Assembly (NCBI GenBank): GCA_025362795.1
Contig: JANYFE010000069.1
Span: forward strand, 1-62,768
Source: Rhodobacterales bacterium
GTDB taxonomy: Bacteria; Pseudomonadota; Alphaproteobacteria; Rhodobacterales; Rhodobacteraceae
DNA: 62,768 nucleotides
Direction: 5' to 3'
Shown here: positions 16,406 to 48,576 of the stretch, one piece after another
How the letters are laid out: every line of letters starts with the position of its first letter
How positions within the stretch are numbered: position 1 is the stretch's first letter
Notes under the pieces: model-generated
What the model was told of the DNA's origin: nothing
Seen by the model: the letters and a program-made list of their open reading frames with translations, nothing else
Databases searched by the model: none
Translations under genes and position numbers: made by a program

Positions 16406-16422
16406 AACTGGTTGGACCAGTT
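16406..16422. promoter_or_regulatory. FadR/GntR-type operator upstream of the Tm-1-like operon
   Basis: AACTGGT-TGG-ACCAGTT, seven-base perfect arms around three bases. It matches the TGGT-N3-ACCA plan used by FadR-subfamily GntR regulators. It lies in the divergent region 16366-16677 about 40 bases before the likely TTG start of the UPF0261 gene. Confidence 0.75.
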
Positions 16423-16585
16423 TTGCAATGGTTGATCTGGCCGTCATGCCGCGCGAGGCGTGCTGCACAGCAGTGTTCCGGGCTGATTTCGTTGAAATCT
16501 ATGCGGCGTTGCAGCATTTCGCCCGGCACAGGCTGCCTGCAGATTTAGGGTGTCATCCGACATTCATCTTGACTGACTTCGCCTC

Positions 16586-16598
16586 TTGGTAATACCAG
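16586..16598. promoter_or_regulatory. second FadR-type operator, sugar ABC promoter
   Basis: TTGGT-AAT-ACCAG, a weaker copy of the same inverted repeat (TGGT-N3-ACCA), 80 bases before the substrate-binding-protein start. Apart from this and the site at 16406, I see nothing else defined in the 312-base divergent region 16366-16677. Confidence 0.6.
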
Positions 16599-16677
16599 TT
16601 TGACCTATCCACTCCGAATCTGCCCAATCAGAAGGCGGATGGGTTGGGGAGGCGCTTGATCAAAGGGAGGAATGCTG

Positions 16678-17988
16678 ATGCACAGTAAAATGGCAGGGTT
16701 GCTTGCCGGGGCCGTGATGACGCTTTTTGGAACGTCGCACGCCTATTCACAAGAGCTGACGATCTTCTGGGCGGAATGGGATCCGGCCAACTATCTGCAG
16801 GAACTGGTCAACGATTACGAGGCGGAGACCGGCGTCAAAGTGACGGTGGAAACCACGCCTTGGGCGGATTTCCAGACCAAGGCGTTCACGGAATTCAACG
16901 CCAAGGGCAGTGCCTATGACCTGATCGTCGGCGACAGCCAGTGGCTGGGGGCGGCGTCTGAGGGTGGCCATTATGTCGATCTGACGCAATTCGTGAAGGA
17001 CAACCACGTTCTGGACACGATGGCGCCTGCGACGGTGAAATTCTATTCGGAATACCCCGGCAACAGCGGCAAATACTGGTCGATCCCGGCCGAGGGCGAC
17101 GCGGTGGGCTGGTCTTATCGCAAGGACTGGTTCGAAGACCCGACCGAAATGGCGAATTTCAAGGCCAAGTATGGCTATGACCTTGCCGTGCCGAAGGACT
17201 GGAAAGCGTTGCGCGACATCGCGGAATTCTTCTACCGGCCTGATCAAAAGCGCGCAGGCGTCGCGATCTACACCGACAATTCCTATGACGCGATGGCGAT
17301 GGGCTTCGAGAACGCGCTGTTCTCGTTTGGCGGCGAACTGGGTGACTTTGGCACTTACAAAGTCGATGGCATCGTCAACTCTGAAAAGGCCATCGCCGCG
17401 CTGGACGCCTACCGCGAACTGTACAAGTTCACCCCGCCCGGCTGGGCCAAGTCCTTTTTTGTCGAGGACAATCAGGCCATTACCGAAAATCTGGCGGCGA
17501 TGTCGATGAACTACTTCGCCTTCTTCCCGGCGCTGTTGAACGAGGCGTCGAACCCGAATGCCAAGAACACCGGCTTCTTTGCCAACCCGCCCGGACCCGG
17601 TGGCGACCAGTTTGCCGCACTAGGCGGTCAGGGCATCTCGATCGTGTCCTACAGCCAGAACAAGGACGAAGCGTTCAAGTTCCTGCAATGGTTCATCAAG
17701 GACGAAACCCAGAAGAAATGGGCCGCTTTGGGGGGCTATACCTGCAACAAGTCCGTGCTGGAAAGCGCAGACTTCCAGAACGCCACACCCTACAACAAGG
17801 CGTTCTATGACACGATGTTCAAGGTCAAGGACTTTTGGGCAGTGCCGGAATATGCCGAACTGCTGAGCCAGATGAACACCAGGCTGTACCCGTTGATCGT
17901 GGGTGGCGAAGGGTCGTCCAAGGACACGCTGGATGCGTTGGCGGCGGACTGGAAGGCGACGTTTGCCAAGTATGGCCGCGGCGGCTGA
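16678..17988 (+). CDS. sugar ABC transporter substrate-binding protein (family 1)
   Basis: The 436-residue periplasmic protein has a signal peptide (MHSKMAGLLAGAVMTLFGTSHAYSQ, cleavage near SYSQ/E). It shows the family-1 solute-binding layout (LTIFWAEWDPANYLQELVNDYEAETGVKVTVE, PADFQTK-like segment, DLIVGDSQWLG). The AGGGAGG at 16664-16670 is too close to the ATG at 16672 and well placed for the ATG at 16678, so I use the latter. It captures a carbohydrate for the permeases and ATPases that follow. A strong hairpin (17997-18022) after the stop probably protects its mRNA. The sugar is unknown. Confidence 0.9.
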   Translation: MHSKMAGLLAGAVMTLFGTSHAYSQELTIFWAEWDPANYLQELVNDYEAETGVKVTVETTPWADFQTKAFTEFNAKGSAYDLIVGDSQWLGAASEGGHYVDLTQFVKDNHVLDTMAPATVKFYSEYPGNSGKYWSIPAEGDAVGWSYRKDWFEDPTEMANFKAKYGYDLAVPKDWKALRDIAEFFYRPDQKRAGVAIYTDNSYDAMAMGFENALFSFGGELGDFGTYKVDGIVNSEKAIAALDAYRELYKFTPPGWAKSFFVEDNQAITENLAAMSMNYFAFFPALLNEASNPNAKNTGFFANPPGPGGDQFAALGGQGISIVSYSQNKDEAFKFLQWFIKDETQKKWAALGGYTCNKSVLESADFQNATPYNKAFYDTMFKVKDFWAVPEYAELLSQMNTRLYPLIVGGEGSSKDTLDALAADWKATFAKYGRGG

Positions 17989-17996
17989 TACCTTTG

Positions 17997-18022
17997 GGAG
18001 GGGCGGCGGATGACGCCCCTCC
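17997..18022 (+). terminator. intercistronic hairpin after the binding-protein gene
   Basis: GGAGGGGCG (17997-18005) pairs perfectly with CGCCCCTCC (18014-18022) around 8 bases, directly after the binding-protein stop and before the first permease. Such hairpins partly terminate or block 3' exonucleases, raising binding protein over permease. No T-run follows, so stabilisation is the likelier role. Confidence 0.6.
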
Positions 18023-18059
18023 ACTTTCCCATTCGCGCACAATGAACCCGGAGGCCCGT

Positions 18060-18953
18060 GTGGCTCAACAAACCTTGGCCCCAACGGCACCGCGTGCGCA
18101 TGGGATGAGTGATCTGGCGATACGCAATCTGTTCATCATACCAACCATTGTTTTCCTGATCGTTTTCAACATCTTCCCGCTGATTTATTCGCTGGGATAT
18201 TCGTTCACCGACTTTCGCGCCTCGTCCAATGACCCCGCACATTTCGTGGGACTGGACAATTACCGCACCCTGCTGTCTGACCCCAACATCTGGAGCAATT
18301 TTACGATCACGGCGAAATACGTGATCATTTCGGTGACGGGTCAGGTGATTGTCGGCTTTGGCGTGGCGATGCTGCTCAACCGCAACATCCCGTTCAAGGG
18401 GCTGCTGACGACGCTGTTGCTGTTGCCAATGATGCTGTCTGCGGCGGTGGTCGGGCTGTTCTGGAAGCTGCTGTATGACCCCAGTTTCGGCATCATCAAC
18501 TATGCGTTTGGCCTGGGCACATTTGAATGGTTGGCCGATCCCAAGATGGCGCTTTATGCGATTGCGATTGCCGATATCTGGATGTGGTCGCCGTTTGTGA
18601 TGCTGTTGTCGCTGGCGGGCCTGTCGGCGGTGCCAAAGCACCTGTACGAAGCGGCGGCGATAGACCGGGCGTCCGGCCTGTATGTCTTTTTCCGCATTAC
18701 GCTGCCATTGGTGGCACCGATCCTGATGATCGCCGTCATTTTTCGAACGATGGAGGCGTTCAAGACCTTTGACCTTGCCTATATCCTTGCCTCGCAGCCG
18801 ACTACGGAAGTCATCTCGATCCGGCTGTACAAGATGGCGTTCCAGGAGTGGCAGACGGGGCTGTCCTGCGCCTTTGCCTATATCGTGCTGGTCATGGTGC
18901 TGGCAATCACCAACATTTATGTCAAATACCTGAACAAAGTGAAGGAACGCTAG
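18060..18953 (+). CDS. sugar ABC transporter permease (MalF/UgpA type)
   Basis: The 297-residue inner-membrane protein has six predicted helices, starting FIIPTIVFLIVFNIFPLIYSLGYSF. The EAA loop that docks on the ATPase is L-Y-E-A-A-A-I-D-R-A-S-G near residue 200. I favour GTG at 18060 because GGAGG sits five bases upstream; ATG at 18042 is an in-frame alternative. It ends at TAG one base before the second permease ATG. Confidence 0.9.
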   Translation: MAQQTLAPTAPRAHGMSDLAIRNLFIIPTIVFLIVFNIFPLIYSLGYSFTDFRASSNDPAHFVGLDNYRTLLSDPNIWSNFTITAKYVIISVTGQVIVGFGVAMLLNRNIPFKGLLTTLLLLPMMLSAAVVGLFWKLLYDPSFGIINYAFGLGTFEWLADPKMALYAIAIADIWMWSPFVMLLSLAGLSAVPKHLYEAAAIDRASGLYVFFRITLPLVAPILMIAVIFRTMEAFKTFDLAYILASQPTTEVISIRLYKMAFQEWQTGLSCAFAYIVLVMVLAITNIYVKYLNKVKER

Positions 18954-18954
18954 A

Positions 18955-19914
18955 ATGGCCGCGGTCCGCACCAAAGGCGAAATGCTGCGCCACCGGCTGT
19001 CGATCATCAGCCTGCTGGTGATATTGGCGCTGTTTCTGGCCCCGATCTTCTGGATCACCGCGACGGCGTTCAAGCCGCGCAATCTGGCGACGACGGTGCC
19101 GCCCACGGTGTTTTTCCAGCCCGAGTTCAGCCCGTTCGTCAAGCTGATGACCAAGCGCAGCCAGCTGCGGTCAGCCCCCACCGCGGAGGTTTACAACGCC
19201 GCCCCATGGTGGGAGCAGACGGTGTTTGACGGCGGTGAAAAGGTGGTGCGGTCTGGCAAGGGCGAGGTGCAATTGTCGGGCTTTCCGAGCCGGTTCCTGA
19301 ACTCGCTGATCATTGCCATCACGTCGACGGTGCTGGCGGTGGGCATGGGCACGATCACGGCCTATGGATTCTCGCGGTTCAAGGTGGCGGGCGAGGATGA
19401 CTGGCTGTTCTTCATCCTGTCGACCCGAATGTTGCCACCCGTGGTGGTGGCGATCCCGATGTTCCTGATGTACCGGGTTGTGGGGTTGAACGACACCCAT
19501 CTGGGGCTGATCATACTATACACTGCGTTCAACCTGTCTTTCTCGGTCTGGCTGATGAAGGGGTTCATCGACGAGATCCCCAAGGAATACGAGGATGCGG
19601 CGCTGGTCGATGGCTATACCCGCATGCAGGCGTTCTTTCGCATCGTGCTGCCAGAGGCGGCGACCGGGATCGCGGCAACAGCGGTGTTCTGTTTCATCAC
19701 GGCGTGGAACGAGTATGCCTTTGCGCTGATCATGACCAACAAACGGGCGCAGACCGCGCCACCGTTCATCCCGTCGCAGGTGGGGTCGGGCCTGCCCGAC
19801 TGGACCGTGATTGCGGCGGGGACGTTCCTGTTTCTGGTGCCCGTCGCCATCTTCACTTTCCTTCTGCGCAACCACCTGTTGCGCGGCATGAGTTTCGGGG
19901 CGATCCGCAAATGA
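18955..19914 (+). CDS. sugar ABC transporter permease (MalG/UgpE type)
   Basis: This 319-residue permease has the EAA loop Y-E-D-A-A-L-V-D-G-Y-T-R near residue 215 and the terminal NHLLRGMSFGAIRK. Between helix 1 and helix 2 it carries a periplasmic loop of roughly 80 residues (KLMTKRSQLR...WWEQTVFDGGEKVVRS), longer than in plain MalG, a trait of one subfamily. It pairs with the preceding permease to form the channel. Its stop overlaps the next start (ATGA). Confidence 0.9.
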   Translation: MAAVRTKGEMLRHRLSIISLLVILALFLAPIFWITATAFKPRNLATTVPPTVFFQPEFSPFVKLMTKRSQLRSAPTAEVYNAAPWWEQTVFDGGEKVVRSGKGEVQLSGFPSRFLNSLIIAITSTVLAVGMGTITAYGFSRFKVAGEDDWLFFILSTRMLPPVVVAIPMFLMYRVVGLNDTHLGLIILYTAFNLSFSVWLMKGFIDEIPKEYEDAALVDGYTRMQAFFRIVLPEAATGIAATAVFCFITAWNEYAFALIMTNKRAQTAPPFIPSQVGSGLPDWTVIAAGTFLFLVPVAIFTFLLRNHLLRGMSFGAIRK

Positions 19915-20105
19915 GTTTTCGCGACACCAACCAGCGGGTGCTGATCCCCGTGGCGCAGACCGTGATGATTTTGGGGATCGTGGCGCTGTGCCAGCCCTGG
20001 GTCGAGGTGCTGCACCGCTATGGCATGACGCTGACGCTGATCGGGTTGGTCAGTTTCATGATCACCACCAAGATACCTGCCTCCGCGCCGAGGGGCGACG
20101 AATGA
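19911..20105 (+). CDS. small two-helix membrane protein of the sugar ABC operon
   Basis: The 64-residue product is MSFRDTNQRVLIPVAQTVMI..., with two hydrophobic segments (VAQTVMILGIVALCQPWV and MTLTLIGLVSFMITT) and a short polar tail. Both ends overlap neighbours by ATGA (permease stop at 19912-19914; ATPase start at 20102), strong evidence that it is translated within the operon. I recognise no named domain. It may be an accessory subunit stabilising the permease-ATPase complex. Confidence 0.8.
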   Translation: MSFRDTNQRVLIPVAQTVMILGIVALCQPWVEVLHRYGMTLTLIGLVSFMITTKIPASAPRGDE

Positions 20106-21178
20106 CCCAGATTGAATTGCGCAATGTGAACAAGTTTTTCGGGGCGGTTCAGGTTATCAAAGATGTCAGCCTGACGGTGAATGACCGGGAATTCGTGGTG
20201 TTTCTGGGCCAGTCGGGCTGCGGCAAGACCACGACGTTGCGGGCCATTGCCGGGCTGGAGACGGTGGATTCGGGCGAGATTCTGGTAGGCGGCGTGCCGG
20301 TGCAGGATACGCGGGCAGAGGATCGGGACATCGCCTTTGTGTTCCAGAGCTTTGCGCTCTATCCGCATCTGACGGTGTACGAGAACATGGCCTTTCCGCT
20401 GCGCGCGGTGGGAACGCCCAAGGCAGAGGTTGATGTGACGGTGCGACGGGTGGCGGGCGTCTTGCAGATCAGCGGGTTGCTGAAGCGGCGGCCTTCGGCC
20501 CTGTCGGGCGGCGATTTGCAGCGGGTGGCGATTGGGCGGGCGCTGGTGCGCAACCCCAAGGCGATGCTGATGGACGAGCCGATCGGCAGTCTGGACGCCA
20601 AGCTGCGCGAGGAAATGCGGGTGGAGTTGAAGCGCCTGCATGTCGAACAGGGCTCGACCACGATCTATGTGACGCATGACCAGATCGAGGCGATGGCGCT
20701 GGCCGACCGCATCGTGGTGATGCATGCGGGCGTGTTGCAGCAGGTGGGCACGCCGGAAGAGATTTACACTAACCCGGTGAACCTGTTCGTGGCGCAGTTT
20801 GTCGGCAGCCCGGTGATGAATGTTTGCGATGTTGTGGTTGGCGATGGGGTGGTGACGCTGGCGGGCGCGGCAGAGGGGTTTGCGATGCCGCAAGCCTTGA
20901 CGCAGCAGTTACAAGCCAAGGTGACGCTGGGGATAAGGCCGGAAGCGTTGGAAGTGGTACTGGAGCCAAGCGCGGGTGCCATTGGGGCGGAGGTGCATCT
21001 GGTGGAGAGTTTGGGGTCACATGACATTGTGGATCTGCGGATAGGCCAGGCGTTGGTGCGGGCGCGGACCCGGGCCGGGCTGGTTTCAGGACCGGGGTTG
21101 CGGGTGTACGTGAAGGCCGATGCCAGCCGCGCCCATTTTTTTGACGAGGCCGGTCAGTCTTTGGGGATCAGGGTCTGA
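20102..21178 (+). CDS. sugar ABC transporter ATP-binding protein 1 (UgpC/MalK family)
   Basis: The 358-residue ATPase starts MTQIELRNVNKFFGAVQVI. It has Walker A GQSGCGKTT, Q-loop VFQSFALYPHLTVYENM, signature LSGGDLQRVA (Asp replacing the usual Gln), Walker B AMLMDEPIGSLD and switch His in VTHD. A TOBE-like regulatory domain fills the last 120 residues. Its ATG overlaps the small membrane protein stop, and its own stop overlaps the second ATPase start by one base. Two different ATPases suggest a heterodimer. Confidence 0.92.
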   Translation: MTQIELRNVNKFFGAVQVIKDVSLTVNDREFVVFLGQSGCGKTTTLRAIAGLETVDSGEILVGGVPVQDTRAEDRDIAFVFQSFALYPHLTVYENMAFPLRAVGTPKAEVDVTVRRVAGVLQISGLLKRRPSALSGGDLQRVAIGRALVRNPKAMLMDEPIGSLDAKLREEMRVELKRLHVEQGSTTIYVTHDQIEAMALADRIVVMHAGVLQQVGTPEEIYTNPVNLFVAQFVGSPVMNVCDVVVGDGVVTLAGAAEGFAMPQALTQQLQAKVTLGIRPEALEVVLEPSAGAIGAEVHLVESLGSHDIVDLRIGQALVRARTRAGLVSGPGLRVYVKADASRAHFFDEAGQSLGIRV

Positions 21179-22242
21179 TGGCGCATATCGAACTAAAGGG
21201 TGTATCGAAAAGTTTTGCCGGGGTTCCGGCGATCCGGGATATCGATCTGGACATCGCGGACGGCGAGTTTTTCGTTTTGCTTGGCGAGACGGGCGCCGGG
21301 AAAACCACGACGCTGCGGATGATTGCGGGGCTGGAAAAGCCCACGACCGGGCGGGTGTGGATTGACGGGCAGGACGTGACAGACTGGGGGGCGGCGGCGC
21401 GGGATGTGGCGCTGGTCTTGCAGCAATACTCGCTGTACCCGCGCTATACCGTGCGGCAGAATCTGGAATTTCCGCTGCGCTCGCCGATCCGACCCATCGC
21501 GGAGGCAGAGATTGCGACACGGATTGCCAAGGTTGCGGCGACGCTCAGGATCGAGCATCTGCTGGACCGCAAGACCGACCGGTTGTCGGGCGGCGAGATG
21601 CAGCGGGTGTCGATCGGGCGGGCCATTGTGCGAACCCCCAAGGTGTTCCTGATGGACGAACCCTTGTCGGCGCTGGACGCAAAACTGCGCGAGGCGCTGC
21701 GGGGCGAATTGAAAAGCTTGCAGATGGATTTGGGCGAGACGTTTCTGTTCGTCACCCATGACCAGGTTGAGGCCATGTCGATGGGCGACCGGGTCGGCGT
21801 CCTGAACAAGGGGGCGCTGGTGCAAGTGGGCAGCCCGCAAGAGATTTACGGCAATCCGGTCAATACCTTTGTTGCAAGGGCTGTGGGGACGCCGGCGATG
21901 AATTTGCTGACGGGGGTCTGGGCCGGCGGGCGGGCAGAGTTGGGTGCGATGGTGTTTGATCACCCGGGCGGTCAGGGCGCTGCGGGGCGCGGGCTGGTGT
22001 TTGGGGTGCGACCGGAGGATCTGGTGCTGGGCGGGGATGGTGTGGAAGCCGTCGTTACCGACATCGAGAATCACGGGGTTGAAAAGATCATCTCGCTTTC
22101 GGCGGGAGGGCAGGCGTTGCGAGCAACGGTGCCGGTCACGGTAAAATTCCTGCGCGGTGACACGGTGCCGGTCGGCTGGCAGGCGGCGCGGGTGGTGGTG
22201 TTTGACGCGAAAAGCGGGCAGTCGCTGCGGCACGGCGGGTAA
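21178..22242 (+). CDS. sugar ABC transporter ATP-binding protein 2 (UgpC/MalK family)
   Basis: The 354-residue ATPase has Walker A GETGAGKTT, Q-loop VLQQYSLYPRYTVRQN, signature LSGGEMQRVS, Walker B VFLMDEPLSALD and a C-terminal TOBE domain. It starts inside the TGATG overlap with ATPase 1. It is the last gene of the importer operon and converges on the hydroxyacid dehydrogenase with a 20-base gap. Together with ATPase 1 it would power the permease pair. Confidence 0.92.
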   Translation: MAHIELKGVSKSFAGVPAIRDIDLDIADGEFFVLLGETGAGKTTTLRMIAGLEKPTTGRVWIDGQDVTDWGAAARDVALVLQQYSLYPRYTVRQNLEFPLRSPIRPIAEAEIATRIAKVAATLRIEHLLDRKTDRLSGGEMQRVSIGRAIVRTPKVFLMDEPLSALDAKLREALRGELKSLQMDLGETFLFVTHDQVEAMSMGDRVGVLNKGALVQVGSPQEIYGNPVNTFVARAVGTPAMNLLTGVWAGGRAELGAMVFDHPGGQGAAGRGLVFGVRPEDLVLGGDGVEAVVTDIENHGVEKIISLSAGGQALRATVPVTVKFLRGDTVPVGWQAARVVVFDAKSGQSLRHGG

Positions 22243-22262: not shown

Positions 22263-23231
22263 TTAGCGGGGGAAGCGTTTGCGATAGTGACCTTCGACGT
22301 CGGGGTTGCAGAAATTCTGCGGCAGGTCGCCGTCCAGGATGCGCAGGACTTCGTCGGCAGTAACCTGACCCATGCGCCACATGCTGTCTTGGGTGATGCC
22401 GGCGACATGCGGGGTCAGCATGACGTTGGGCAGGGACCAGAGCGGACTGTCGGTTGCCAGCGGCTGGACGTCGAACACGTCCAAGGCGGCGCTGATACGG
22501 CCCGATTGCAGGGCGGGGATCAGGGCGGCGGTGTCGATGATGGGGCCCCGCGACACGTTGATCAGGATGGCCCCGGGTTTCAAGCTCGCGATGCGGGCGG
22601 CATTCAGGGCGCCCCGGGTGTCGTCGGTCAGGGGCGCACAAAGGACCAGCACATCGGCGGTTGCGACCAGATCGTCGAGGCTCAGAGGCGTCACGTCGGA
22701 TGGCAGGCTATCGGGGCGGCGGGTGTGGCTTGCGATTTTCACACCAAACCCCTGTGCCATGCGGTGCAAAGCGCGGCCTATGTTGCCAAAACCGAATATC
22801 CCGAGCGTGCGGCCGCGCAGATCGCGGTTGTGATCCGAAGTGTTCCGCCCTGCCGTCCAGCCTTGGCTGCGCAGGGTCGCATCCATCACGCGGAACTGGC
22901 GCAGCAAGGCTATGGCTGCGAAAATGGCGTGTTCCGCGACGGTGCTGGCGTTGGCACCGGGCACATTGGCGACCAGCACGCCCGCGGCGGTGGCAACCTG
23001 CATCGGCACCATGTCGAGGCCAGCGCCGTGGCGGACCGCGGCGCGGAGGTTGCGGGCTTGGGCGAAGTATGCGGGCGGGATGTTGGTGCGGACGATCAAC
23101 ACGTCTGCCGCCAGCCCTTCGGCCATGATCGCAGCGGCCGTGGGGGCAGAGGCCACGCCATATTCTGTCGCGGCAATCAGCCGTGCTGTCACGTCCGGGT
23201 GGAGCGGATGGGTGGAAAAAACCCGTCGCAT
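22263..23231 (-). CDS. D-2-hydroxyacid dehydrogenase family protein
   Basis: The 322-residue NAD-dependent dehydrogenase has a Rossmann loop TLGIFGFGNIGRALHRMA around residue 145. Catalytic Arg lies in INVSRGPIIDT and catalytic His in MLTPHVAGITQD. The usual acidic Glu segment reads ALDVFDVQPL. It interconverts a 2-hydroxyacid and 2-oxoacid, fitting a sugar-acid pathway. It is the last gene of the operon that begins at 25986, one base after the regulator gene. The precise substrate is unknown. Confidence 0.85.
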   Translation of the reverse strand: MRRVFSTHPLHPDVTARLIAATEYGVASAPTAAAIMAEGLAADVLIVRTNIPPAYFAQARNLRAAVRHGAGLDMVPMQVATAAGVLVANVPGANASTVAEHAIFAAIALLRQFRVMDATLRSQGWTAGRNTSDHNRDLRGRTLGIFGFGNIGRALHRMAQGFGVKIASHTRRPDSLPSDVTPLSLDDLVATADVLVLCAPLTDDTRGALNAARIASLKPGAILINVSRGPIIDTAALIPALQSGRISAALDVFDVQPLATDSPLWSLPNVMLTPHVAGITQDSMWRMGQVTADEVLRILDGDLPQNFCNPDVEGHYRKRFPR

Positions 23232-23232: not shown

Positions 23233-23919
23233 TCAGGTTTTCTGACCGGAGATCAGCCCCTTCCAGTAGCCTTCGACACCTTGCAGATGGCTGCTCATAA
23301 GGGCCTGCGCAAGATTGGCGTCACGGCGTTGCAACGCGTCAAAGATTTGCAAGTGTTCGGCATGGCTGCGTTTTCCGCGTTCAGGGTCAGCGAAATAGAT
23401 CGGCAGCCGACGTTCGCCCATTGCGTAATAGACCGAACAGACCCGAAAAAACACGGTATTCTGGGTGGCGCGGACAATTTCGAGGTGGAAATCGCGATCC
23501 TCTTCGGCCAGCGGTTCACCGGCGGCAAGGCGATGTTCGGAACGCGAGAGAATCTCTGCAAGCCGGGCGAAATTTTCGTCCGTAGCACGGATCGAGGCGA
23601 GTTCGGCGGCCTTGATTTCGTGGATTTTCCGCAGCTCGACCGCTTCGTAAATCTGGATCGGATCCAGCGGGAGCCCGGCCTTGGCGAACAGCGCAAGTGC
23701 TTCGACCGAGGCGGTGCGCGTGGTCAGGTAGATGCCGCTTTTGGCGCGGCGTTCGACGATGCGCATCGCTTCCAGAATCGCAAGGGTTTCGCGGATCTGG
23801 CCGCGGCTGACGCTGAAATGTTCGGCAAGTTCACGCTCTGACGGGGTGCGGCCGCTGTCAGCGGTGGAGGTCGCGTACAGATACGCGGCGAGGTCCGGCA
23901 GCAGGTTCTTTTCGGACAT
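23233..23919 (-). CDS. FadR-subfamily GntR transcriptional regulator (FCD domain)
   Basis: The 228-residue protein has a winged HTH (SERELAEHFSVSRGQIRETLAILEAMRIVERR...GIYL) at residues about 24-68. The alpha-helical FCD ligand domain follows, with metal-binding-type positions in EEDRDFHLEIVRA and HAEHLQIFDALQRRD. FCD regulators usually repress catabolic genes until a sugar acid or carboxylate binds. It is encoded inside the operon it probably controls. The TGGT-N3-ACCA operators at 16406, 16586, 26052, 26215 and 48564 have the half-site plan of this subfamily, so it is the best candidate to bind them. Confidence 0.88.
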   Translation of the reverse strand: MSEKNLLPDLAAYLYATSTADSGRTPSERELAEHFSVSRGQIRETLAILEAMRIVERRAKSGIYLTTRTASVEALALFAKAGLPLDPIQIYEAVELRKIHEIKAAELASIRATDENFARLAEILSRSEHRLAAGEPLAEEDRDFHLEIVRATQNTVFFRVCSVYYAMGERRLPIYFADPERGKRSHAEHLQIFDALQRRDANLAQALMSSHLQGVEGYWKGLISGQKT

Positions 23920-23922: not shown

Positions 23923-25092
23923 TCAAGCGTTCCTGATATGGGCCCTCAACACGGGTTCCGATAGCGAAAATCCAAGGCCCGGTCCATCGGGGATCGAGAT
24001 CATTCCATCCGCCAGTTGAATCTTGCCTTCGGTCAGATCGTGGATCATCGGATTGGCCCCGCTGGAGTATTCCACGATGAAACTTGCGGGCGATGCGGCG
24101 CAGAGGTGCAGTCCGGCAAAGAAGCACGGAGCGCCGGCCCACAGATGCGGCGCAAAGCGCAGGTTGAAGGCGGCTGCGATGGCGGCGATGCGCAGGGATT
24201 CGGTGATGCCGCCGCAAAACGCCGGGTCAGGCTGAAAAATGTCGCAGGCGCGCAGGGTTGCGAGGTCGCGGAAATCAAACCGGGTGCATTCGGATTCGCC
24301 GGCGGCGATGGGAATGTTGGTGGCGGCGCGAACTTCGGCCATGCCTTGCTTGTCGTCGCCGATGACCGGCTCTTCAAACCACGCCAGGTCGCAATCCCGG
24401 ACAAGGTAGGCAAAGCGTTTGGCCTCTGCGACGGTATAGGTGCCATGCGCGTCGACGGCGATTTCGATGTCGGGGCCAAGGGCGGCGCGGGCGGCTTTGA
24501 CCCGTTCGGCGCTGGTGTGGACGTTGGCATCCATCGAGCCTATGCGCATCTTGACGGATTTGAAGCCACCCTGGTCGATGTAGCCTTGCAGCTGTGCGCC
24601 GATTTCGGCCGCGTTGGCCCAGCCGCCCGAGGCATAGGCAGGCAGGCGGTCGGCCATGCGGCCACCGATCAGTTGCCACACGGGCTGGTTCAGGTGCTTG
24701 CCCAGAATGTCCCAAAGCGCGATATCGACGGCGGAAATTGCGGCGATTGTCAGCCCGCGCCGGGCCAGTGCGGGCATGGCATGACCAGAGGTCGCGGCCT
24801 TTGCGGCGCGGACCCCGTTGTACAGCATCTCCCAGATCGCGGTAATGTCGCCGGGGTTGCGGCCGATCAGTTTGGGGGCCACTTCGACATTCAGCAAATG
24901 GACCAACGCGGCATATTCGCCAGCGGACCCGGCCGCATTCTTGCCCTCGCCCCAGCCGACCAGACCGTCATCGGTTTCGATCCGCAGGATCGCCGCGTCA
25001 AACGTGGTCAGCGTGCCAAAATCGCTGCGGTGCTGACGCGCCGTTTCGATCGGAATGCTGACCCACCATGCCTGAACGCTGACGATCTTCAT
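23923..25092 (-). CDS. mandelate racemase/muconate lactonizing-type enolase-superfamily enzyme
   Basis: The 389-residue product shows the superfamily Mg ligands: Asp214 in IAVDAHGTY, Glu240 in AWFEEPVIG and Glu266 in IAAGESECTR. Lys181 and Arg183 (VKMRIG) sit where the KxK general-base motif falls. FAPHLWAG carries a C-terminal His. Members dehydrate or racemise sugar acids or cycloisomerise lactones. Its place between a sugar-isomerase-like gene and a hydroxyacid dehydrogenase supports an acid-sugar dehydratase, but the replaced second Lys leaves the reaction open. It ends three bases before the regulator start. Confidence 0.87.
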   Translation of the reverse strand: MKIVSVQAWWVSIPIETARQHRSDFGTLTTFDAAILRIETDDGLVGWGEGKNAAGSAGEYAALVHLLNVEVAPKLIGRNPGDITAIWEMLYNGVRAAKAATSGHAMPALARRGLTIAAISAVDIALWDILGKHLNQPVWQLIGGRMADRLPAYASGGWANAAEIGAQLQGYIDQGGFKSVKMRIGSMDANVHTSAERVKAARAALGPDIEIAVDAHGTYTVAEAKRFAYLVRDCDLAWFEEPVIGDDKQGMAEVRAATNIPIAAGESECTRFDFRDLATLRACDIFQPDPAFCGGITESLRIAAIAAAFNLRFAPHLWAGAPCFFAGLHLCAASPASFIVEYSSGANPMIHDLTEGKIQLADGMISIPDGPGLGFSLSEPVLRAHIRNA

Positions 25093-25098: not shown

Positions 25099-25986
25099 CT
25101 ACTTTATCAGCGGCAGGATGGTTTCGGCTGTGATCCGCATCTGGCTGTCGTAGAAGTCTTCGGTCAGAAGGCTGGAACCGTGGTCCTGGATGAACTTGAG
25201 CTGTTCGGGCGAAATGTCGACCGGGTTGCGTTCGACCATGTCAGGATACATCGCGGCAGGGGTGCGGTCGACGGGTGCCACGAATTCGTTGGTCAGCGCC
25301 CCGTCATAGCCGATTTCGCGCAGGGTTGCGATGATCTTGGCCCATTCCAGATGACCCAGACCAGCGGCAAAGCGGTTGTTGTCGGCGATGTGGAAATCGA
25401 AAAGACGCTTGCCCGCAGAGCGGATGGCGTCATGGATGTTCGATTCCTCCATGTTCAGGTGATACGCGTCGAGGCAGACGCCGCAATCCGGGTGGACGGC
25501 GTCGGCCAGCGCCAGCGCCTGGGCGGCGCGGTTGAAGAAATAAGTTTCGAAACGGTTCAGCGGCTCGATTGCGACTTTGACGCCGACCTTCTGGGCATGC
25601 GCAAAGCATTCCTTGGTGGCATCTACGACCCATTTCCATTCCTCGGCCTCGGTGCCATCGGGCACAACCTTGCCGACGGTCGCGGGCACCAGCGTGATGA
25701 TCTGGCCTTCCAGTTCCGACACCATCGTCAGCACCGATTTCACATAGTCGACCGACCGCGCCCGCTGACCTTCATCACGCGCGGCGAGGTTGCGTTGGCC
25801 CAGCGTCAGCGTCACGGCACCCCAGCAGCGGATGCCATGCTCTTTCAGCAGCGCGCGGGTTTCCTTGACCGGATACTGCGTTGGCTCCCCCGAGATTTCG
25901 ATGCTCTCATAGCCGTATTTCTTGATCCGGCGCAGCGTGACCGCCAAGGGCTCTGCCCGCATCCAGTTGTGTGTTGAAAGGTGCAT
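25099..25986 (-). CDS. sugar phosphate isomerase/epimerase-like TIM barrel
   Basis: This 295-residue AP-endonuclease-2/xylose-isomerase-like barrel starts MHLSTHNWMRAEPLAVTLRRI. Metal-ligand type segments are VAIEPLNRFE, CGVCLDAYHLNMEE and FDFHIADNNRFAAGLGHLEW. These enzymes isomerise, epimerise or dehydrate keto-sugars such as inosose. A very good AGGAGG lies seven bases before the ATG. It is the first gene of a four-gene operon (barrel, enolase-type enzyme, FadR-like regulator, hydroxyacid dehydrogenase) with two operators upstream. Confidence 0.87.
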   Translation of the reverse strand: MHLSTHNWMRAEPLAVTLRRIKKYGYESIEISGEPTQYPVKETRALLKEHGIRCWGAVTLTLGQRNLAARDEGQRARSVDYVKSVLTMVSELEGQIITLVPATVGKVVPDGTEAEEWKWVVDATKECFAHAQKVGVKVAIEPLNRFETYFFNRAAQALALADAVHPDCGVCLDAYHLNMEESNIHDAIRSAGKRLFDFHIADNNRFAAGLGHLEWAKIIATLREIGYDGALTNEFVAPVDRTPAAMYPDMVERNPVDISPEQLKFIQDHGSSLLTEDFYDSQMRITAETILPLIK

Positions 25987-26052: not shown

Positions 26053-26064
26053 TGGTTAGACCAG
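26052..26064. promoter_or_regulatory. FadR/GntR-type operator, sugar-acid operon (proximal)
   Basis: CTGGT-TAG-ACCAG, perfect five-base arms and the same plan as the site at 16406. It lies 66 bases upstream of the start at 25986, within the 334-base gap 25987-26320 after the ABC exporter. Confidence 0.72.
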
Positions 26065-26214: not shown

Positions 26215-26227
26215 TTGGTCTGACCAA
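26215..26227. promoter_or_regulatory. FadR/GntR-type operator, sugar-acid operon (distal)
   Basis: TTGGT-CTG-ACCAA, a perfect inverted repeat 163 bases from the proximal site. The spacing could allow a repression loop. The rest of the 25987-26320 gap holds the 28-base dyad and no credible gene. Confidence 0.62.
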
Positions 26228-26320: not shown

Positions 26321-28189
26321 TTAGCCAACATCATCAAAGCTGGCGTAATTGGCGCGGTACAGTCCGGCATACAGCCCTGCCTCGCGCAGCAATTCGGCAT
26401 GGGTGCCGCTTTCGACCAGCCGCCCGGCTTGCAGCACCATGATCTTGTCGGCATGGCGGACCGTCGCCAGGCGGTGGGCAATGACCAGACCCGTGCGGCC
26501 CCTGAGCAGGATCGCCAATGCGCGCTGGATCACCTGTTCGGTGGCGCTGTCGATGCTGGCCGTGGCCTCGTCCAGCACCAGAATACGGGCATCTGCCACC
26601 AGCGCCCGGGCGAAGCTGAGCAGTTGGCGCTGCCCGGTGGACAGGCTGCCGCCCCGTTCGCCCAGCATGGTGTCATAACCCTGCGGCAAGGCGCGGATGA
26701 ACGGATCGGCCCCAAGTGCCGTGGCGGCGGCGATGATGTCGTCGCGGCTGGCGCTGTCCTTGTTGTAGCGGATGTTGTCCAGAATGGTGCCGGTGAACAG
26801 GAACGGTTCTTGCAGGACCATCGCGATCTGACGGCCCAAGGAGGCTTGCGTGACCTGCCGCACATCGTGGCCGCCGACCAGAACCGCGCCTTCGGTCACG
26901 TCGTAGAACCGATGGATCAGCGCCATCGCACTGGATTTGCCCGACCCTGTGGGCCCGACCAGCGCGACGGTTTGCCCCGGCTCTACCCGAAAGGAAATGT
27001 CCTGGAGGACCAGTTGGTTCGGTTCATAGCCGAAACTCACCTGCCGGAATTCGACAGAGCCGTCGGTTTCAGGCAAATCCACCGCGCCGGGCTGATCCTG
27101 GATCGAGATTGCGACGTCCAGCACTTCGATCAGCCGCTGACCAGAGGCCATGGCGCGCTGCATCACCGAATACTGGATGGTGAGGGACCGGATCGGATCA
27201 AAAAACCGCTGGATGTAGAACAGGAAGGCGACCATGACGCCCACATCCAGACGGTGATCCAGCACCATCGAGCCGCCCAGCACCACGACAAGCGACATGG
27301 CAAGGCCGGTCAGCGTATCGACCACCGGCACCAGAATCTGGGCCAGTTTGGCGGCCCACAGATGCGTTGCAAGATTGGCCTGCACCTTTGCGTCATAGAG
27401 TTGCGCGTTCAGGGTTTCGCGCCCCATCGCCTGCACGGTGCGCACGGCGTGGATGCCTTCGGCCAAGGCGCCATTGACGGCCGAATTCGTCTCATGTGCC
27501 TTGATGAAGGCGTCGCGCGCCATGGGCAGCCAGAAAATCCGCACCACGAACAGCACCGGCAAGACCGAGAGTGTGATCAGACCCAGCCCGGGGTCCAGAT
27601 ACAGCATCAGGGTGATGATGCCGAACAGCAGCACGATGTCACCGACCGAAAGGACGGAGGTTTCCAGAAACTCTTGCATAGAGCCGACATCACCTTGCAG
27701 GCGCGACATCAGGCGGCCCACTTCGGTCTTGTCCATGAACGACAGCGACACCCGTTGCAGATGGGCGAACATGGCGCGGCGGATGTCAAACAGGACGTTT
27801 TCGGCGGCCTTGCCGACCACGGTTTCCTGCACATGGCTGGCGACAAAGTTCAGGGCGATGACGATGCCGAAGGCGACAAGGGACTGATACAAGACCGGCA
27901 TTCCGGCCGGTCCCACCATGACGCCCTTGTCGATGGCGCGGCGGATGATCATCGGAATGGCCAGCTGTGTCACGGTAAAGACCAGCACCGCCACGACGGA
28001 AATCACGAATTGCCGGCGGTAGGGCCGCACGAAGGCACCGATCCGCCGGATGATCTGGGGATCGAACACCCGCCCGAACATCTCTTCCTCAATCCGGTGC
28101 GAGCCTACGACGGCCCGCAAGGTCGGGGCACCCGGCGCGGATTCGCGGTCGGACTGGTAGTCTTGTTCCACGGCGGTCTGGTCGATCAT
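26321..28189 (-). CDS. ABC exporter half-transporter 2 (membrane + ATPase)
   Basis: The 622-residue protein has an N-terminal six-helix exporter domain (RQFVISVVAVLVFTVTQLAIPMIIRRAIDKG...). The ATPase domain has Walker A GPTGSGKSS, signature LSTGQRQLLSFARAL and Walker B ILVLDEATASID; Thr replaces the usual second-position Gly of LSGGQ. It overlaps the upstream half-transporter by four bases, so the two probably form a heterodimeric multidrug/lipid-type exporter. The substrate is unknown. Confidence 0.9.
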   Translation of the reverse strand: MIDQTAVEQDYQSDRESAPGAPTLRAVVGSHRIEEEMFGRVFDPQIIRRIGAFVRPYRRQFVISVVAVLVFTVTQLAIPMIIRRAIDKGVMVGPAGMPVLYQSLVAFGIVIALNFVASHVQETVVGKAAENVLFDIRRAMFAHLQRVSLSFMDKTEVGRLMSRLQGDVGSMQEFLETSVLSVGDIVLLFGIITLMLYLDPGLGLITLSVLPVLFVVRIFWLPMARDAFIKAHETNSAVNGALAEGIHAVRTVQAMGRETLNAQLYDAKVQANLATHLWAAKLAQILVPVVDTLTGLAMSLVVVLGGSMVLDHRLDVGVMVAFLFYIQRFFDPIRSLTIQYSVMQRAMASGQRLIEVLDVAISIQDQPGAVDLPETDGSVEFRQVSFGYEPNQLVLQDISFRVEPGQTVALVGPTGSGKSSAMALIHRFYDVTEGAVLVGGHDVRQVTQASLGRQIAMVLQEPFLFTGTILDNIRYNKDSASRDDIIAAATALGADPFIRALPQGYDTMLGERGGSLSTGQRQLLSFARALVADARILVLDEATASIDSATEQVIQRALAILLRGRTGLVIAHRLATVRHADKIMVLQAGRLVESGTHAELLREAGLYAGLYRANYASFDDVG

Positions 28190-42157: not shown

Positions 42158-43414
42158 TTACTGGAACACGGCGTTGGGGTTGTCGAGGCTGTCGGAGCCT
42201 TCAAACGCGACCGCCTGCAAGCCCAGTGTGGCAATCGCCCGCTGCACCGACTGGGTCTGCGTCACCAGCGCATCGACACCGCCCATGATCAACGCCTCGC
42301 CCTCTTTGTTGCCCGCCGCCAGCATCTGGTCATAGGCCATGCCCGCCTCGGCGCGGATCTTTATCGCGCCCAATGCGGCGACGGTAGCGTCAAGTTCACC
42401 TTTCAACTGCGTGTCGACCTTGGGATCCACCGAGGCCACAAGGTCGGACACCGATGCACCCGTGACGACCGAGCCATCGACCCTCGTATAGCTGCCGAGA
42501 TAGACGTTCCGCATCCCGATGCCATCATTGTAATAGCTGTTGTGCGTGTTGTCGGAAAAGCAGTCATGCTCTTCTTCCGGGTCGTTCAGCAACAGACCCA
42601 GCTTCATCCGCTGTCCGGCCAGTTCACCGTAAGACAGACTGCCCATCCCGGTCAAAATCGCCAGCACCCCGGCCTTGGGGTCCTGGATCACCGCCGCCCG
42701 CGCCGCGCCGGCGGCAGACCAGTCGTCCGTGATTTCGGTCAGATCCCCGACCAGAAGACCGGTTACCACCCGCAGGTAATCTGCCCTGCGGTCGCAATTG
42801 CCGTTGGTGCAACCAGCACCCTGCACATAATCGGTAAACGGCCGGTTTCCCGCCCCCGGTCCGGTGCCGTTCAAATCCTGGCCCCACAACAGAAACTCGA
42901 TCGCGTGATAGCCGGTTGCCACATTAGCCTCTATGCCGTCAGCTTCTTGCAAAGTGCCGGACAACAGCTCTGGCGTGATCTTGGTGGCGTCAATTTCAGT
43001 GCCTGACAGGGTGAATTTCGGGGTGGCTATGACGTTCAGCTGCGCCAGATCGTTTTCCGCGTTGCCATAGTCGCCTGCGACATAGTCGATCAGCCCTTCG
43101 TCCAGAGGCCAGCTGTTCACCCGCCCCTCCCAATCATCCACGATGGCGTTGCCAAAACGGTAGGCTTCCGATTGCTGATACTGCACACGCGCCAAAATCC
43201 ATACCGCGCGGGCCGCTTTCAGCGTGTCGTCCGACGGGGCCGCAATCAAGGCATCCACCGCCGCCTGCAAGGTTTGGGCGGTGGTCAGGCTGTCGCCATA
43301 GGTGGCCTCGGCAATATCGGCGTAGGTCTTGACGACTTCGGCAGGCGTGGCCGCGAAACCCGGCAGCGCGGACAGGGCCGTGGTGGCGAAAGCCGCCAAA
43401 AGAAGGGGGCGCAT
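42158..43414 (-). CDS. imelysin family protein (IrpA-like)
   Basis: The 418-residue protein has a signal peptide (MRPLLLAAFATTALSALPGFA). The imelysin GxHxxE motif is G-Y-H-A-I-E (His170, Glu173), followed by FLLWGQDLNGTGPG. It resembles cyanobacterial iron-regulated IrpA and the M75 domain of EfeO. It probably binds iron in the periplasm. ATG at 43414 follows AAGGAA. It is downstream of hemP by 77 bases and starts the imelysin-DUF1111-imelysin series. Confidence 0.9.
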   Translation of the reverse strand: MRPLLLAAFATTALSALPGFAATPAEVVKTYADIAEATYGDSLTTAQTLQAAVDALIAAPSDDTLKAARAVWILARVQYQQSEAYRFGNAIVDDWEGRVNSWPLDEGLIDYVAGDYGNAENDLAQLNVIATPKFTLSGTEIDATKITPELLSGTLQEADGIEANVATGYHAIEFLLWGQDLNGTGPGAGNRPFTDYVQGAGCTNGNCDRRADYLRVVTGLLVGDLTEITDDWSAAGAARAAVIQDPKAGVLAILTGMGSLSYGELAGQRMKLGLLLNDPEEEHDCFSDNTHNSYYNDGIGMRNVYLGSYTRVDGSVVTGASVSDLVASVDPKVDTQLKGELDATVAALGAIKIRAEAGMAYDQMLAAGNKEGEALIMGGVDALVTQTQSVQRAIATLGLQAVAFEGSDSLDNPNAVFQ

Positions 43415-45939: not shown

Positions 45940-46002
45940 GAACCCGTCTCGTCTTTTCCATTATACATAACAAAAACAGTTGCTTATTGACATTTCTGCG
46001 CA

Positions 46003-46023: not shown

Positions 46024-46217
46024 ACCGGGTGCAGTGCAAACCCGGCCAAATGTCGCCGATTTTGGGGCGCTGTAAACCGCTCAAATCCGCGCAAGTTTGG
46101 CGGAAATACGCGCATTCATCCTGATCGAGATTAAGTTTGGGTTTCGCAGTGTCGTGGTTGCCGGGTCTTTTTTCGGCGGTCGCATTCAGAAGTCGCAGAT
46201 AGCAAGGAGAGCAAACA

Positions 46218-46949
46218 ATGCAGATGCTCGATAGTCCGTTCGCCCGTAAATTGACCAGTTTTGCCACCCTGTCCCACACCGACCTGAACATCCTGTCCGA
46301 TTTGCACCAGCGCCGCCGCAAGTTTGCCATGGGGCGTGACATGGTGCGGCAGGGTCACCCCAACCGCACCGTCTATGTGCTTGCCGATGGCTGGGCGTTT
46401 TCCTATGTGCTGTTGCCCAGCGGTGCCCGGCAGATCGTCGATTTTCGCATTCCCGGCGATTTTCTGGGCCTGCGCTCGATCCTGTTTCGCAGATCGGACC
46501 AGAACGTCGAGCCGATCACCCCGATCGAGGCGTCAGAAGTGCTGGCCAGCGATCTGATTGATGCGTTTTCCAAAACGCCCGCACTCGCCAAGGCCGTGCT
46601 GTGGGCGGCGTCGCGGGACGAATCGATGGTGGCTGACCATCTGGTGGGCCTTGGCCGCCGCAATGCCGCCGAACGGATCGCGCATTTCCTTTTGGAACTG
46701 GGTGCGCGACTGCGGCTGGTCGGGCTGGCCAGCAATGCGGGCTATGCCTGCCCCTTGACGCAATATCATCTGGCCGATGCGCTGGGGCTGAGCGACGTGC
46801 ATGTCAACCGGGTCTTGCGCCAATTGCGCGAAATGGGGCTGGTGACGTTCCAGAACGGCCGCGTGACCTTTGACGATTTCGCGGCGTTGGTGACATTCGC
46901 CGATTTCGAGGGCGACTATCTGGACCATAATGGCCCAGCGCGACAGTAG
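46218..46949 (+). CDS. Crp/Fnr-family transcriptional regulator
   Basis: The 243-residue regulator has an N-terminal cyclic-nucleotide-type beta roll (residues about 20-120, including DFRIPGDFLGLRS) and a C-terminal winged HTH (TQYHLADALGLSDVHVNRVLRQLREMGLVTFQNGRVT). It lacks the N-terminal Cys cluster of FNR, so direct iron-sulfur oxygen sensing is unlikely. AAGGAG precedes the ATG. Targets are unknown. Confidence 0.9.
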   Translation: MQMLDSPFARKLTSFATLSHTDLNILSDLHQRRRKFAMGRDMVRQGHPNRTVYVLADGWAFSYVLLPSGARQIVDFRIPGDFLGLRSILFRRSDQNVEPITPIEASEVLASDLIDAFSKTPALAKAVLWAASRDESMVADHLVGLGRRNAAERIAHFLLELGARLRLVGLASNAGYACPLTQYHLADALGLSDVHVNRVLRQLREMGLVTFQNGRVTFDDFAALVTFADFEGDYLDHNGPARQ

Positions 46950-47084
46950 CCGCCCGATCCAGGCATGTGGGGCGAAATTTATTCGGGCCTGATCCACATC
47001 AGCATGGCGTCTTGCGACTGGGTCTATGGAGAGCCATCGCGCGAAAATCCAACTGCAATCCGCGCTTAAATCAGGAGAGCCGCC

Positions 47085-47573
47085 ATGAAGCGTTTGTTAA
47101 TACCCAGTATCCTTGCCAGCTTGTTCATCGCCGCCGCGTCCTTTGCGGCCACCGATATGGTGTCGTCCGTCGATGTTTCGATTGACCTGCCCGCCGTCAC
47201 CAACAAGGCCGCAGCATTGCGGTACACGCACATCTCTGATGATCTGAAAAATGCGATCATGTCGCGTCTGGTGGACCGTCTGGCGGATGAAGGGATGAAG
47301 GTCGGCGTCGACATTTCCGAAGTCGAGCTGAGCAATTCGTTCAGCGAAACAATCGGTTCGGCCGATACGCATCTGCAAGGCATCGTTTCGATCACCGATG
47401 TGAAGGACAATTCGAACTTCAAATCCTACACGCTGACGGTCGATGTCAATCTTGCCAAAACCTACTTCCCGGCCACTGTCGACATGACCACGCTCAGTGC
47501 AAGCAGCGACGAATATTATCAGGCGATGATTCAGGCTTTTGCCCAGTCCGTCGTGGACCGCCTCGCCAGCTGA
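47085..47573 (+). CDS. secreted protein of unknown function
   Basis: The 162-residue product has a signal peptide (MKRLLIPSILASLFIAAASFA). Mature sequence alternates beta-type stretches (SSVDVSIDLPAVTN; LQGIVSITDVKD; YTLTVDVNLAKTYFP) suggesting a small beta-rich periplasmic protein. AGGAG precedes the ATG. A strong terminator follows, so it ends a transcription unit. I recognise no family. Confidence 0.7.
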   Translation: MKRLLIPSILASLFIAAASFAATDMVSSVDVSIDLPAVTNKAAALRYTHISDDLKNAIMSRLVDRLADEGMKVGVDISEVELSNSFSETIGSADTHLQGIVSITDVKDNSNFKSYTLTVDVNLAKTYFPATVDMTTLSASSDEYYQAMIQAFAQSVVDRLAS

Positions 47574-47639
47574 ACCAGTTTGAATTGAATTTTATCGAGT
47601 GGCATTGTTACCGTTGTTAACGAGTGAGTGTATTGCAAC

Positions 47640-47678
47640 GCGGGGCAGGGCAGATCATCGCCCTGCCCCGCCTTTTTT
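47640..47678 (+). terminator. strong Rho-independent terminator
   Basis: GCGGGGCAGGGC (47640-47651) pairs perfectly with GCCCTGCCCCGC (47660-47671) around 8 bases, followed by CTTTTTTG. It is placed 66 bases after the secreted-protein stop. It is the best intrinsic terminator in the window. Confidence 0.92.
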
Positions 47679-47722
47679 GTTCTAAAACTGCTTTCTTGGC
47701 ACGGGTGCGGGCGCCGGAACTG

Positions 47723-48475
47723 TCAGGACAATCCGGCCGCCCAATCCGCCATCTGCGCCCACAGCCGGCCATAGCCCGGCCAGTCGACAAACGGCTGCGG
47801 TGCCCAGTGCGGCCCGCAATCCGACGTGAAGGCGATGCTGCGGCCCTTGCCGTAGCTGCCTGCCACGATCAGCGGATCATCCCCGACATGCGCCACCACG
47901 GTGGCCCCCGGTTTCGGCGTGACGCGGTTATAGCCCAAAAGATAGGGCCAGTCCGTCCCCAGTCCGGCCACAACCGGATGCGCAGCCTCGACCAGTGGTT
48001 TCACGCTTTGCGGGCATTCGATGCGGTCATCATGCCGAGACAATATGACCGGCAGCGCCTCTTCCACCGGACTGCCGGCATATTGGCCTTTCGCATCAAT
48101 GCCCTGAAACGTCAGATAGCCGCCGCACATGATCAGGCCGCCACCCTGCGCCACGTAGTCACGCACCGCAGCCAGCCGGTTCGGAAATACCCGGCCCCGA
48201 ACGAATGTATCGGGATGCAGAAGCAGCGTATTGGCCCCGATGTCAGACAGGATCACGCAATCATACGCCTGCAGCGCCACTGCGGTGGATGGAAACTCCC
48301 GCGCCGCGATATGCGACGGTTGATACGTGATGTCCCAGCCAGCTCGCGTCAACGCCTGTTTCATCCAGAAGCCGCCCTCTGCATATTCCGTGGTCGTGAA
48401 GCTGTCGAAACCCTTCTGGTGAATGGAATGGGTGATCCAGCTTTCACCGGCGAACAGGACGGAACGGCGCGTCAT
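47723..48475 (-). CDS. glutamine amidotransferase-like (PF07090/ThuA-like) protein
   Basis: The 250-residue class-I amidotransferase-like fold starts RRSVLFAGESWITHSIHQKGFDSFTT. The nucleophile-elbow position is GGGLIMCGGYLTFQG (Cys near residue 117), and the end has GSYGKGRSIAFTSDCGPHWAP. No ammonia-using partner is evident, so a hydrolytic or signalling role is possible. AGGAG favours ATG at 48475 over 48481. It is divergent from an MFS gene, with a FadR-like operator between them. Confidence 0.78.
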   Translation of the reverse strand: MTRRSVLFAGESWITHSIHQKGFDSFTTTEYAEGGFWMKQALTRAGWDITYQPSHIAAREFPSTAVALQAYDCVILSDIGANTLLLHPDTFVRGRVFPNRLAAVRDYVAQGGGLIMCGGYLTFQGIDAKGQYAGSPVEEALPVILSRHDDRIECPQSVKPLVEAAHPVVAGLGTDWPYLLGYNRVTPKPGATVVAHVGDDPLIVAGSYGKGRSIAFTSDCGPHWAPQPFVDWPGYGRLWAQMADWAAGLS

Positions 48476-48563
48476 TGGCATCTCCTGACATGGTTTGTGA
48501 AGGGGGATCGGATTGTATGATGTTTAGCCTGTTGACCTGCCCCGCGCTAGGGATCAAGCCTCG

Positions 48564-48576
48564 CTGGTCAGACCAG
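48564..48576. promoter_or_regulatory. FadR/GntR-type operator between amidotransferase and MFS genes
   Basis: CTGGT-CAG-ACCAG, a perfect inverted repeat of the same plan as those at 16406 and 26052. It is followed by a repeated half-site CAGACCAG at 48581-48588. It lies 28 bases upstream of the MFS start in a 128-base divergent gap. Confidence 0.65.

Follow-up and report, generated by a model that had tools for sequence, protein, structure and literature searches.

A sugar and sugar-acid gene island in a 62,768-nucleotide stretch of Rhodobacterales DNA (contig JANYFE010000069.1; "the window" denotes this whole stretch) encodes a GntR/FCD regulator at 23233–23919, and four inverted repeats of the form TGGT-N3-ACCA (16409, 16587, 26053 and 26216) look like conserved operators for it, giving a predicted, conserved FCD regulon of the island. 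We put at about 0.75 the probability that this protein is a local repressor of the island that acts through two-operator modules and, in addition, through single operators at genes for an M24-peptidase-like and a DJ-1/PfpI protein elsewhere in the genome. The motif, its conservation, its pairing, its overlap with promoters and the co-occurrence patterns are all visible in the genomes compared here. The sites, one promoter and the regulator are the following:

16406–16422 (core 16409–16419), unstranded: predicted operator, second member of the importer pair, by the start of the Tm-1-like gene (matrix score 23.4)
16569–16595, plus: predicted importer promoter TTGACT-N15-TAATAC, with its -10 inside the 16587 operator (read from the sequence)
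16587–16597, unstranded: predicted operator overlapping the -10 of the importer promoter (matrix score 21.8)
26053–26063, unstranded: predicted operator near the start of the epimerase operon (matrix score 24.6)
26216–26226, unstranded: predicted second operator of the epimerase pair, apparently orphaned (matrix score 18.6)
48565–48575, unstranded: fifth site, between the amidotransferase and major facilitator superfamily (MFS) transporter genes (matrix score 13.7)
23233–23919, minus: GntR/FCD regulator, candidate owner of the sites (PF00392, PF07729; copies 76–85% identical in 80 loci)

An initial annotation of the window had grouped five inverted repeats into one FadR-like operator family. 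All five are present, their coordinates matching once one to three outer bases are included (16406–16422 reads AACTGGT-N3-ACCAGTT), and the data support a single FadR/FCD-type family of predicted operators. The window holds six copies of TGGT-N3-ACCA, compared with a mean of 0.75 and a largest count of 4 in 100 shuffles; the sixth, at 42805, lies within a gene and was absent from the annotated list. A position matrix was trained on relatives only, using exact-core sites (194 island and 30 single sites, duplicates collapsed), and in the window only the five listed sites reach a score of 9, a level expected 0.36 times per window under a Markov null. Two details of the annotation, which had all five sites between genes and in three promoter regions, need adjusting. 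Site 16409 falls within the longest frame of the Tm-1-like open reading frame (ORF); since the Pfam match begins only at residue 23, our estimate places the real start near 16365, with the site upstream of the gene. Site 26216 has the epimerase operon on one side and the 3′ end of an ABC exporter gene (26321–28189, minus) on the other, so that the epimerase promoter is the only adjoining one that still has its gene.

The extended motif also stands out across the 3.84-Mb genome. Among its 49 exact cores, to which the ranking was confined (a mismatch search of the genome gave 304 places), eight score at least 17, a cut-off picked after the fact that lies near the 5th percentile of the training sites (17.4): C36:39178, 26053, C75:1452, 16409, 16587, C88:18760, C3:13407 and 26216. 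Seven of these eight are intergenic (P = 2e-6) after C88:18760 is moved into an ORF and 16409 out of one. Genes beyond annotated records were called with a home-made ORF caller trained on the window's genes.

The regulator combines a GntR winged-helix domain (PF00392, 36.5 bits, cut-off 27) with an FCD effector domain (PF07729, 83.3 bits, cut-off 24.3). Named genomes contain 225 relatives, of which the best 80 (76–85% identity) were fetched; these come mainly from Mesorhizobium and other Rhizobiaceae, with a few from Rhodobacteraceae. All counts over relatives cover these best 80 of 225, which are mostly Mesorhizobium and hence not independent, and thinned counts are given where they were made. 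A copy is present on 124 plasmid records, mostly of Sinorhizobium and Rhizobium. A search of 15 genus-mates gave no close copy (best E 1.7e-18, 34% identity), and one of 40 chosen genomes of the family has one (83%). Because copies are rare among genus and family genomes yet plentiful in Rhizobiaceae and on plasmids, the island looks like an accessory unit in this lineage. Its genes, and those flanking the fifth site, are:

13931–14344, minus: cupin-domain gene, last of the Tm-1-like operon (Pfam Cupin_2)
14341–15177, minus: PEP-hydrolase-like TIM-barrel gene (PF09370)
15178–16428, minus: Tm-1-like (UPF0261) gene; TTG start of the ORF at 16428, real start probably near 16365 (PF06792 from residue 23, PF23189)
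16672–22242, plus: sugar ABC importer, comprising a binding protein, two permeases and two ATPases (family matches)
22263–23231, minus: 2-hydroxyacid dehydrogenase gene (PF02826, PF00389)
23923–25092, minus: enolase-superfamily sugar-acid dehydratase-like gene (PF13378, PF02746; under NCBIfam cut-offs)
25099–25986, minus: AP_endonuc_2 sugar epimerase-like gene, first of its operon (PF01261)
47723–48481, minus: GATase1-like putative glutamine amidotransferase gene (PF07090)
48604–49809, plus: MFS transporter gene (PF07690; start from the ORF caller)

The island sites are kept in related genomes, the comparison that the initial annotation had proposed as a check. The 80 relative loci contain 207 cores in 1.52 Mb, and 194 of them lie within the epimerase and importer promoter regions; at least two sites stand upstream of the epimerase operon in 75 of the 77 loci with room for them, and of the sugar importer in 20 of 21. 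What that annotation had not seen is that the island sites form pairs of fixed spacing, with 26216 as an orphaned member. Where the epimerase region has exactly two sites (74 loci), they are 180 bp apart in 61, 164–179 in 12 and 129 in one, and importer pairs are 167–190 bp apart, except for one at 65. With 178 bp (16409/16587) and 163 bp (26053/26216), the window's own pairs come near these values. Thinning leaves 18 epimerase loci, with a spacing of 173–180 in 17 and an intergenic region of 324–514. The plasmids Sinorhizobium meliloti pSymA (L340) and Rhizobium lentis p1 (L341) carry the whole island from importer to cupin plus the M24 gene, with the same operator pairs. Elsewhere, a single site precedes a second AP_endonuc_2 gene at L249:3523, L254:2801, L257:3246 and L248:2831; these four genes belong to one family, are 75–88% identical to each other, and could be a further regulon member off the island.

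The two members of a pair differ. The promoter-side member mostly has the spacer ATT or AAT, and one strand then reads TGG-TAATAC-CA or TGG-TATTAC-CA. On the epimerase side, TTGAC lies 16–18 bp from this -10-like hexamer at 66 of 75 distal sites, compared with 0.1% of control positions. The same 16–18 bp search found nothing at importer sites; after the range was widened to 13–20 bp, TTGAC appeared at 14–15 bp in 20 of 20, and also in the window (16569–16595). Because TTGAC stands upstream of its -10-like hexamer, the promoter-side operator is predicted to be fused to a promoter of the TTGAC-N15/16-TAATAC type and to cover its -10. In the other member the spacer is mostly CGA; at the epimerase gene, a conserved CTTGC/TGNGNTA block precedes this member.

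In 73 of 75 relatives, the gene beyond the distal epimerase-side operator reads from the opposite strand. Among these 75 neighbours, 69 belong to one protein family and four others are AP_endonuc_2 epimerase-like; a member of the large family from L086 matches the solved 2-hydroxy-3-keto-glucal hydratase 8ro4 (E 4e-169). At 26216 in the window the neighbour is instead the tail of the ABC exporter gene, the hexamer reads TCTGAC, and TTGAC is missing at 16–18 bp. A search for the hydratase-family gene across 57 sequences, comprising the window and other stretches of the same genome, gave no match at E 1e-3. Judged from these sequences, 26216 is best read as an orphaned module half whose promoter and divergent hydratase-family gene are missing there, and it could still assist the operator at 26053.

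In this genome the regulon probably extends beyond the island, to M24-peptidase-like and DJ-1/PfpI genes, which are preceded by the high-scoring cores C75:1452 and C36:39178, respectively. We compared 23 regulator-bearing with 12 regulator-lacking genomes, all picked by hand; the lack rests for five of the 12 on the genus-mate search (matches only up to E 1.7e-18) and for seven on the search of family genomes. M24 orthologues (E up to 1e-120) occur in 23/23 bearing versus 0/12 lacking genomes, with an exact core within 260 bp upstream of 18 of the 23 best orthologues. DJ-1 orthologues (E up to 1e-60) occur in 20/23 versus 1/12, and 9 of the 23 places outside this genome have a core, a weaker case than M24. 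After the island's cupin gene comes the M24 gene in R. lentis and S. meliloti, and in R. lentis the DJ-1 gene is next, on the other strand; in this setting neither gene carries its own site. Several M24 and DJ-1 promoters (L297, L301, L304, L276 and L278) have a second, mostly weaker site 74–76 bp away, about seven helical turns. The idea that the regulon reaches beyond the island thus stands, although its distant member had been named as the amidotransferase/MFS promoter, and the M24 and DJ-1 genes are better supported by comparison.

For the amidotransferase/MFS promoter itself, we consider it somewhat more likely than not that 48565 is a chance match or a site of some other regulator, which would place both genes outside the regulon. 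Its score of 13.7 is the lowest of the five, ranks 11th of the 49 genomic cores, falls short of the training sites' 5th percentile and is exceeded by the scores of two in-gene cores. Exact cores are absent at 20 GATase1-like genes (10 family places and 10 in regulator-bearing genomes) and at 59 promoters of MFS homologues (29 among relatives and 30 in regulator-bearing genomes, from 33 non-own places and 33 matching genomes, the rest of which gave no locus), and the two genes are neighbours in none of these 79 loci at E 1e-20. On the other hand, the 13-mer CTGGTCAGACCAG at 48565 is identical to the site of the M24 gene (C75) and occurs only three times in the genome, as does CTGGTCNGACCAG, whose three exact copies include 48565 and the M24 site. 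A score of at least 13.5 is expected 0.06 times per window under the Markov null, and the site stands 28 bases before the called MFS start codon. One-mismatch cores are found in four of the 59 MFS promoters (L190, L322, L327 and L338), and only that of L338 scores at least 6; at 14.6, it is the one such site among 30 promoters in regulator-bearing genomes, versus none of 29 in the other set. An MFS gene beside the island on pSymA was considered and gave no significant match to the MFS of the window. From the sequence, 48565 may be a lineage-specific extra target of the regulator, with a chance that we set a little short of even.

Several observations qualify the case or weigh against the regulator acting as we propose. 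The bare core, with 49 genomic copies against 92 for the same pattern read backwards, lies mostly within genes: eight of 49 are intergenic (the caller's eight after the two moves mentioned above), against a background intergenic fraction of 0.118 determined from 225 kb of sequence fetched from this genome (P = 0.22). The bare core alone is therefore weak evidence; equal frequency inside genes, which the initial annotation had named as telling against a regulon, describes the bare core and not the extended motif. Two high-scoring cores lack a sensible target: C3:13407 near gyrB, and C88:18760, which falls within ORF 2933–3574 of L082. An RNA gene under either site was rejected, with no Rfam match at the gathering threshold and no tRNA or tmRNA. 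The exact core is missing at 14 of 23 DJ-1 places and five of 23 best M24 orthologues outside this genome. For the modules, the pair spacing in the epimerase region is hardly more constant than the distance from the second site to the gene start; at the importer, 14 of the 16 located UPF0261 starts are more than 700 bp from the pair and have no site of their own within 300 bp; and across 46 thinned pairs the helical-phase statistic R is 0.47 at 10.5 bp and 0.50 at 11.5 bp, so that 10.5 bp is not singled out. The C3 site (L001:1501, score 20.4) lies in the gap between a gyrB-like gene and a Fic/Doc gene.

The three points on the modules bear on whether paired operators cooperate. Each operator of a pair could instead work on its own, serving one of two back-to-back promoters, with neither loop nor cooperation, an alternative that we think rather unlikely. 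The opposite-strand neighbour of the distal epimerase-side operator in 73/75 loci would suit it, as would a helical phase in which 10.5 bp does not stand out, and operon-specific double sites are one of two classes described for FadR divergons (PMC4494728). Constant distance has been treated as a mark of cooperative site pairs (PMC4494728), and the 173–180 bp spacing in 17/18 thinned epimerase loci speaks against independence; constancy alone is no proof of cooperation, because the site-to-gene distance is similarly constant and the variation in intergenic length is mostly on the hydratase side. In 18 of the 20 loci with exactly two importer sites the arrangement is unlike that of the window, the UPF0261 start being 727–837 bp away in 14 and not located in four, and a gene transcribed towards the importer is called in between in 16; the one tested (L243) is TetR-like. 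UPF0261 lies beside the pair, as in the window, only in L086 and L087. Direct control of UPF0261 is consequently not general, given that 14/16 located starts are so far from the pair and without their own site, and where UPF0261 is more than 700 bp away, no known island gene offers a second promoter on which the second importer operator could act. In 17 of the 18 loci where UPF0261 is not adjacent or not located the spacing is still 167–190, which favours a second operator that acts on the importer promoter from a distance. That the importer spacing is kept even with a different gene on the far side suggests cooperative, perhaps looped, repression. Many rhizobial loci have a regulator gene that separates UPF0261 from the importer operators; those tested or annotated are TetR-like (for example L243:857–1417 and R. 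lentis L341:21827–22465); none is found in the window, L086 or L087.

Ownership of the island sites by another FCD regulator is very improbable: although the genome has 13 FCD matches, three within the window, and TKGT/ACMA boxes are common to the FadR subfamily, most of whose groups keep 3 nt between GT and AC (PMC4494728), the flanks fetched for the other 12 matches (about 1.5 kb, less where the contig ended) contain no matrix hit of 9 or more, and the regulator is encoded within the site-carrying operon in the 80 fetched loci where that operon was found. Sites and regulator are conserved together, and 23233–23919, already named as the natural candidate, keeps that place. As for the window's other FCD matches, a GntR/FCD gene (58600–59373, plus; region 57814–59373) overlaps a minus-strand ORF at 57814–59253 whose ABC-ATPase match spans residues 245–476 only, so that the ABC gene is probably shorter. 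At the left end (186–1065), a weak match (38 bits) at 709–1026 in a 107-aa ORF (742–1065) resembles a partial or broken regulator.

In the mechanism that we propose, the GntR/FCD protein would be a local repressor, with a sugar-acid or keto-sugar intermediate probably lifting the repression. It would control its own epimerase–dehydratase–regulator–dehydrogenase operon and the sugar importer, and in this genome probably also the neighbouring Tm-1-like operon. Both promoter regions would carry a two-operator module, and because one operator appears to form part of the -10 element, a bound regulator should directly block RNA polymerase. The second operator, about 165–180 bp away, would probably strengthen repression through contact between bound dimers across a DNA loop; at 26216 only half of such a module would be left. 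The same regulator probably controls the single-operator M24-peptidase-like and DJ-1/PfpI genes elsewhere. Binding, repression rather than activation, looping and the effector are all what we infer.

FadR/FCD regulators (the FadR, PdhR, LldR, GlcC, DgoR and ExuR groups) bind TKGT-N3-ACMA palindromes (PMC4494728). The island regulator resembles them in its GntR and FCD domains, in TGGT/ACCA boxes with 3 nt between GT and AC (PMC4494728), and in predicted operators at a catabolic operon that includes the regulator (75/77 relatives). It differs from the named members in falling under the NCBIfam cut-off of each (NanR 93.8 of 260 bits, UxuR-type 69.9 of 442, LldR 69 of 311, PdhR 51.7 of 330, GlcC 47.2 of 301, and the ExuR equivalog also far below), in its fixed site pairs about 165–180 bp apart, and in having one operator inside the -10. 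NanR is the nearest NCBIfam model, and its operator consists of direct TGGTATAW repeats (PMC4494728), whereas the window sites are inverted repeats. The pairs recall the cooperative double-site divergons of FadR/HutC-type regulators, with two sites in one intergenic region at near-constant distance (PMC4494728); unlike in those divergons, the importer pair persists where UPF0261 is not the next gene (18/20 loci, 14 of them at more than 700 bp and four with UPF0261 not located). That source gives statistics over many regulators, and in the parts of it considered here the island regulator was not found; nor did we recognise a paper on this regulator in the literature, judged by titles and the beginnings of abstracts.

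PMC10628242 proposes, on preliminary evidence, a hydratase of the 2-hydroxy-3-keto-glucal kind in a putative four-enzyme glycoside operon of Agrobacterium, and 8ro4 is presumably the same protein as the AtHYD described there. The likeness to this non-hydrolytic 3-keto-glycoside pathway (PMC10628242) is that the distal operators of 69/75 relatives face a hydratase-family gene. The differences from it (PMC10628242) are that this gene is absent from the window and the fetched stretches of the same genome, and that the island has an enolase-superfamily dehydratase, a 2-hydroxyacid dehydrogenase and UPF0261 and PEP-hydrolase-like proteins. A broader joint reading, which is tentative and somewhat doubtful as a whole, would combine a portable loop module of two operators (the -10 hexamer fused to one, its partner about 16–17 helical turns away whatever gene lies beyond), an undescribed 3-keto-sugar or sugar-acid pathway that includes UPF0261, PEP-hydrolase-like, M24 and DJ-1 proteins of unknown function, a module that in this lineage has lost its hydratase gene and promoter, and a newly recruited amidotransferase/MFS unit.

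Two features of this predicted regulon stand out most: its promoter-fused operator pair and the connection that it makes among several uncharacterised enzymes. If UPF0261/Tm-1-like, PEP-hydrolase-like, M24-peptidase-like and DJ-1/PfpI proteins are tied to one sugar pathway, this would offer a route to their substrates. The pathway would be one spread through the Rhizobiales, including a pSymA plasmid of S. meliloti, and its fixed operator pair would make a natural test case for cooperative repression by an FCD regulator.

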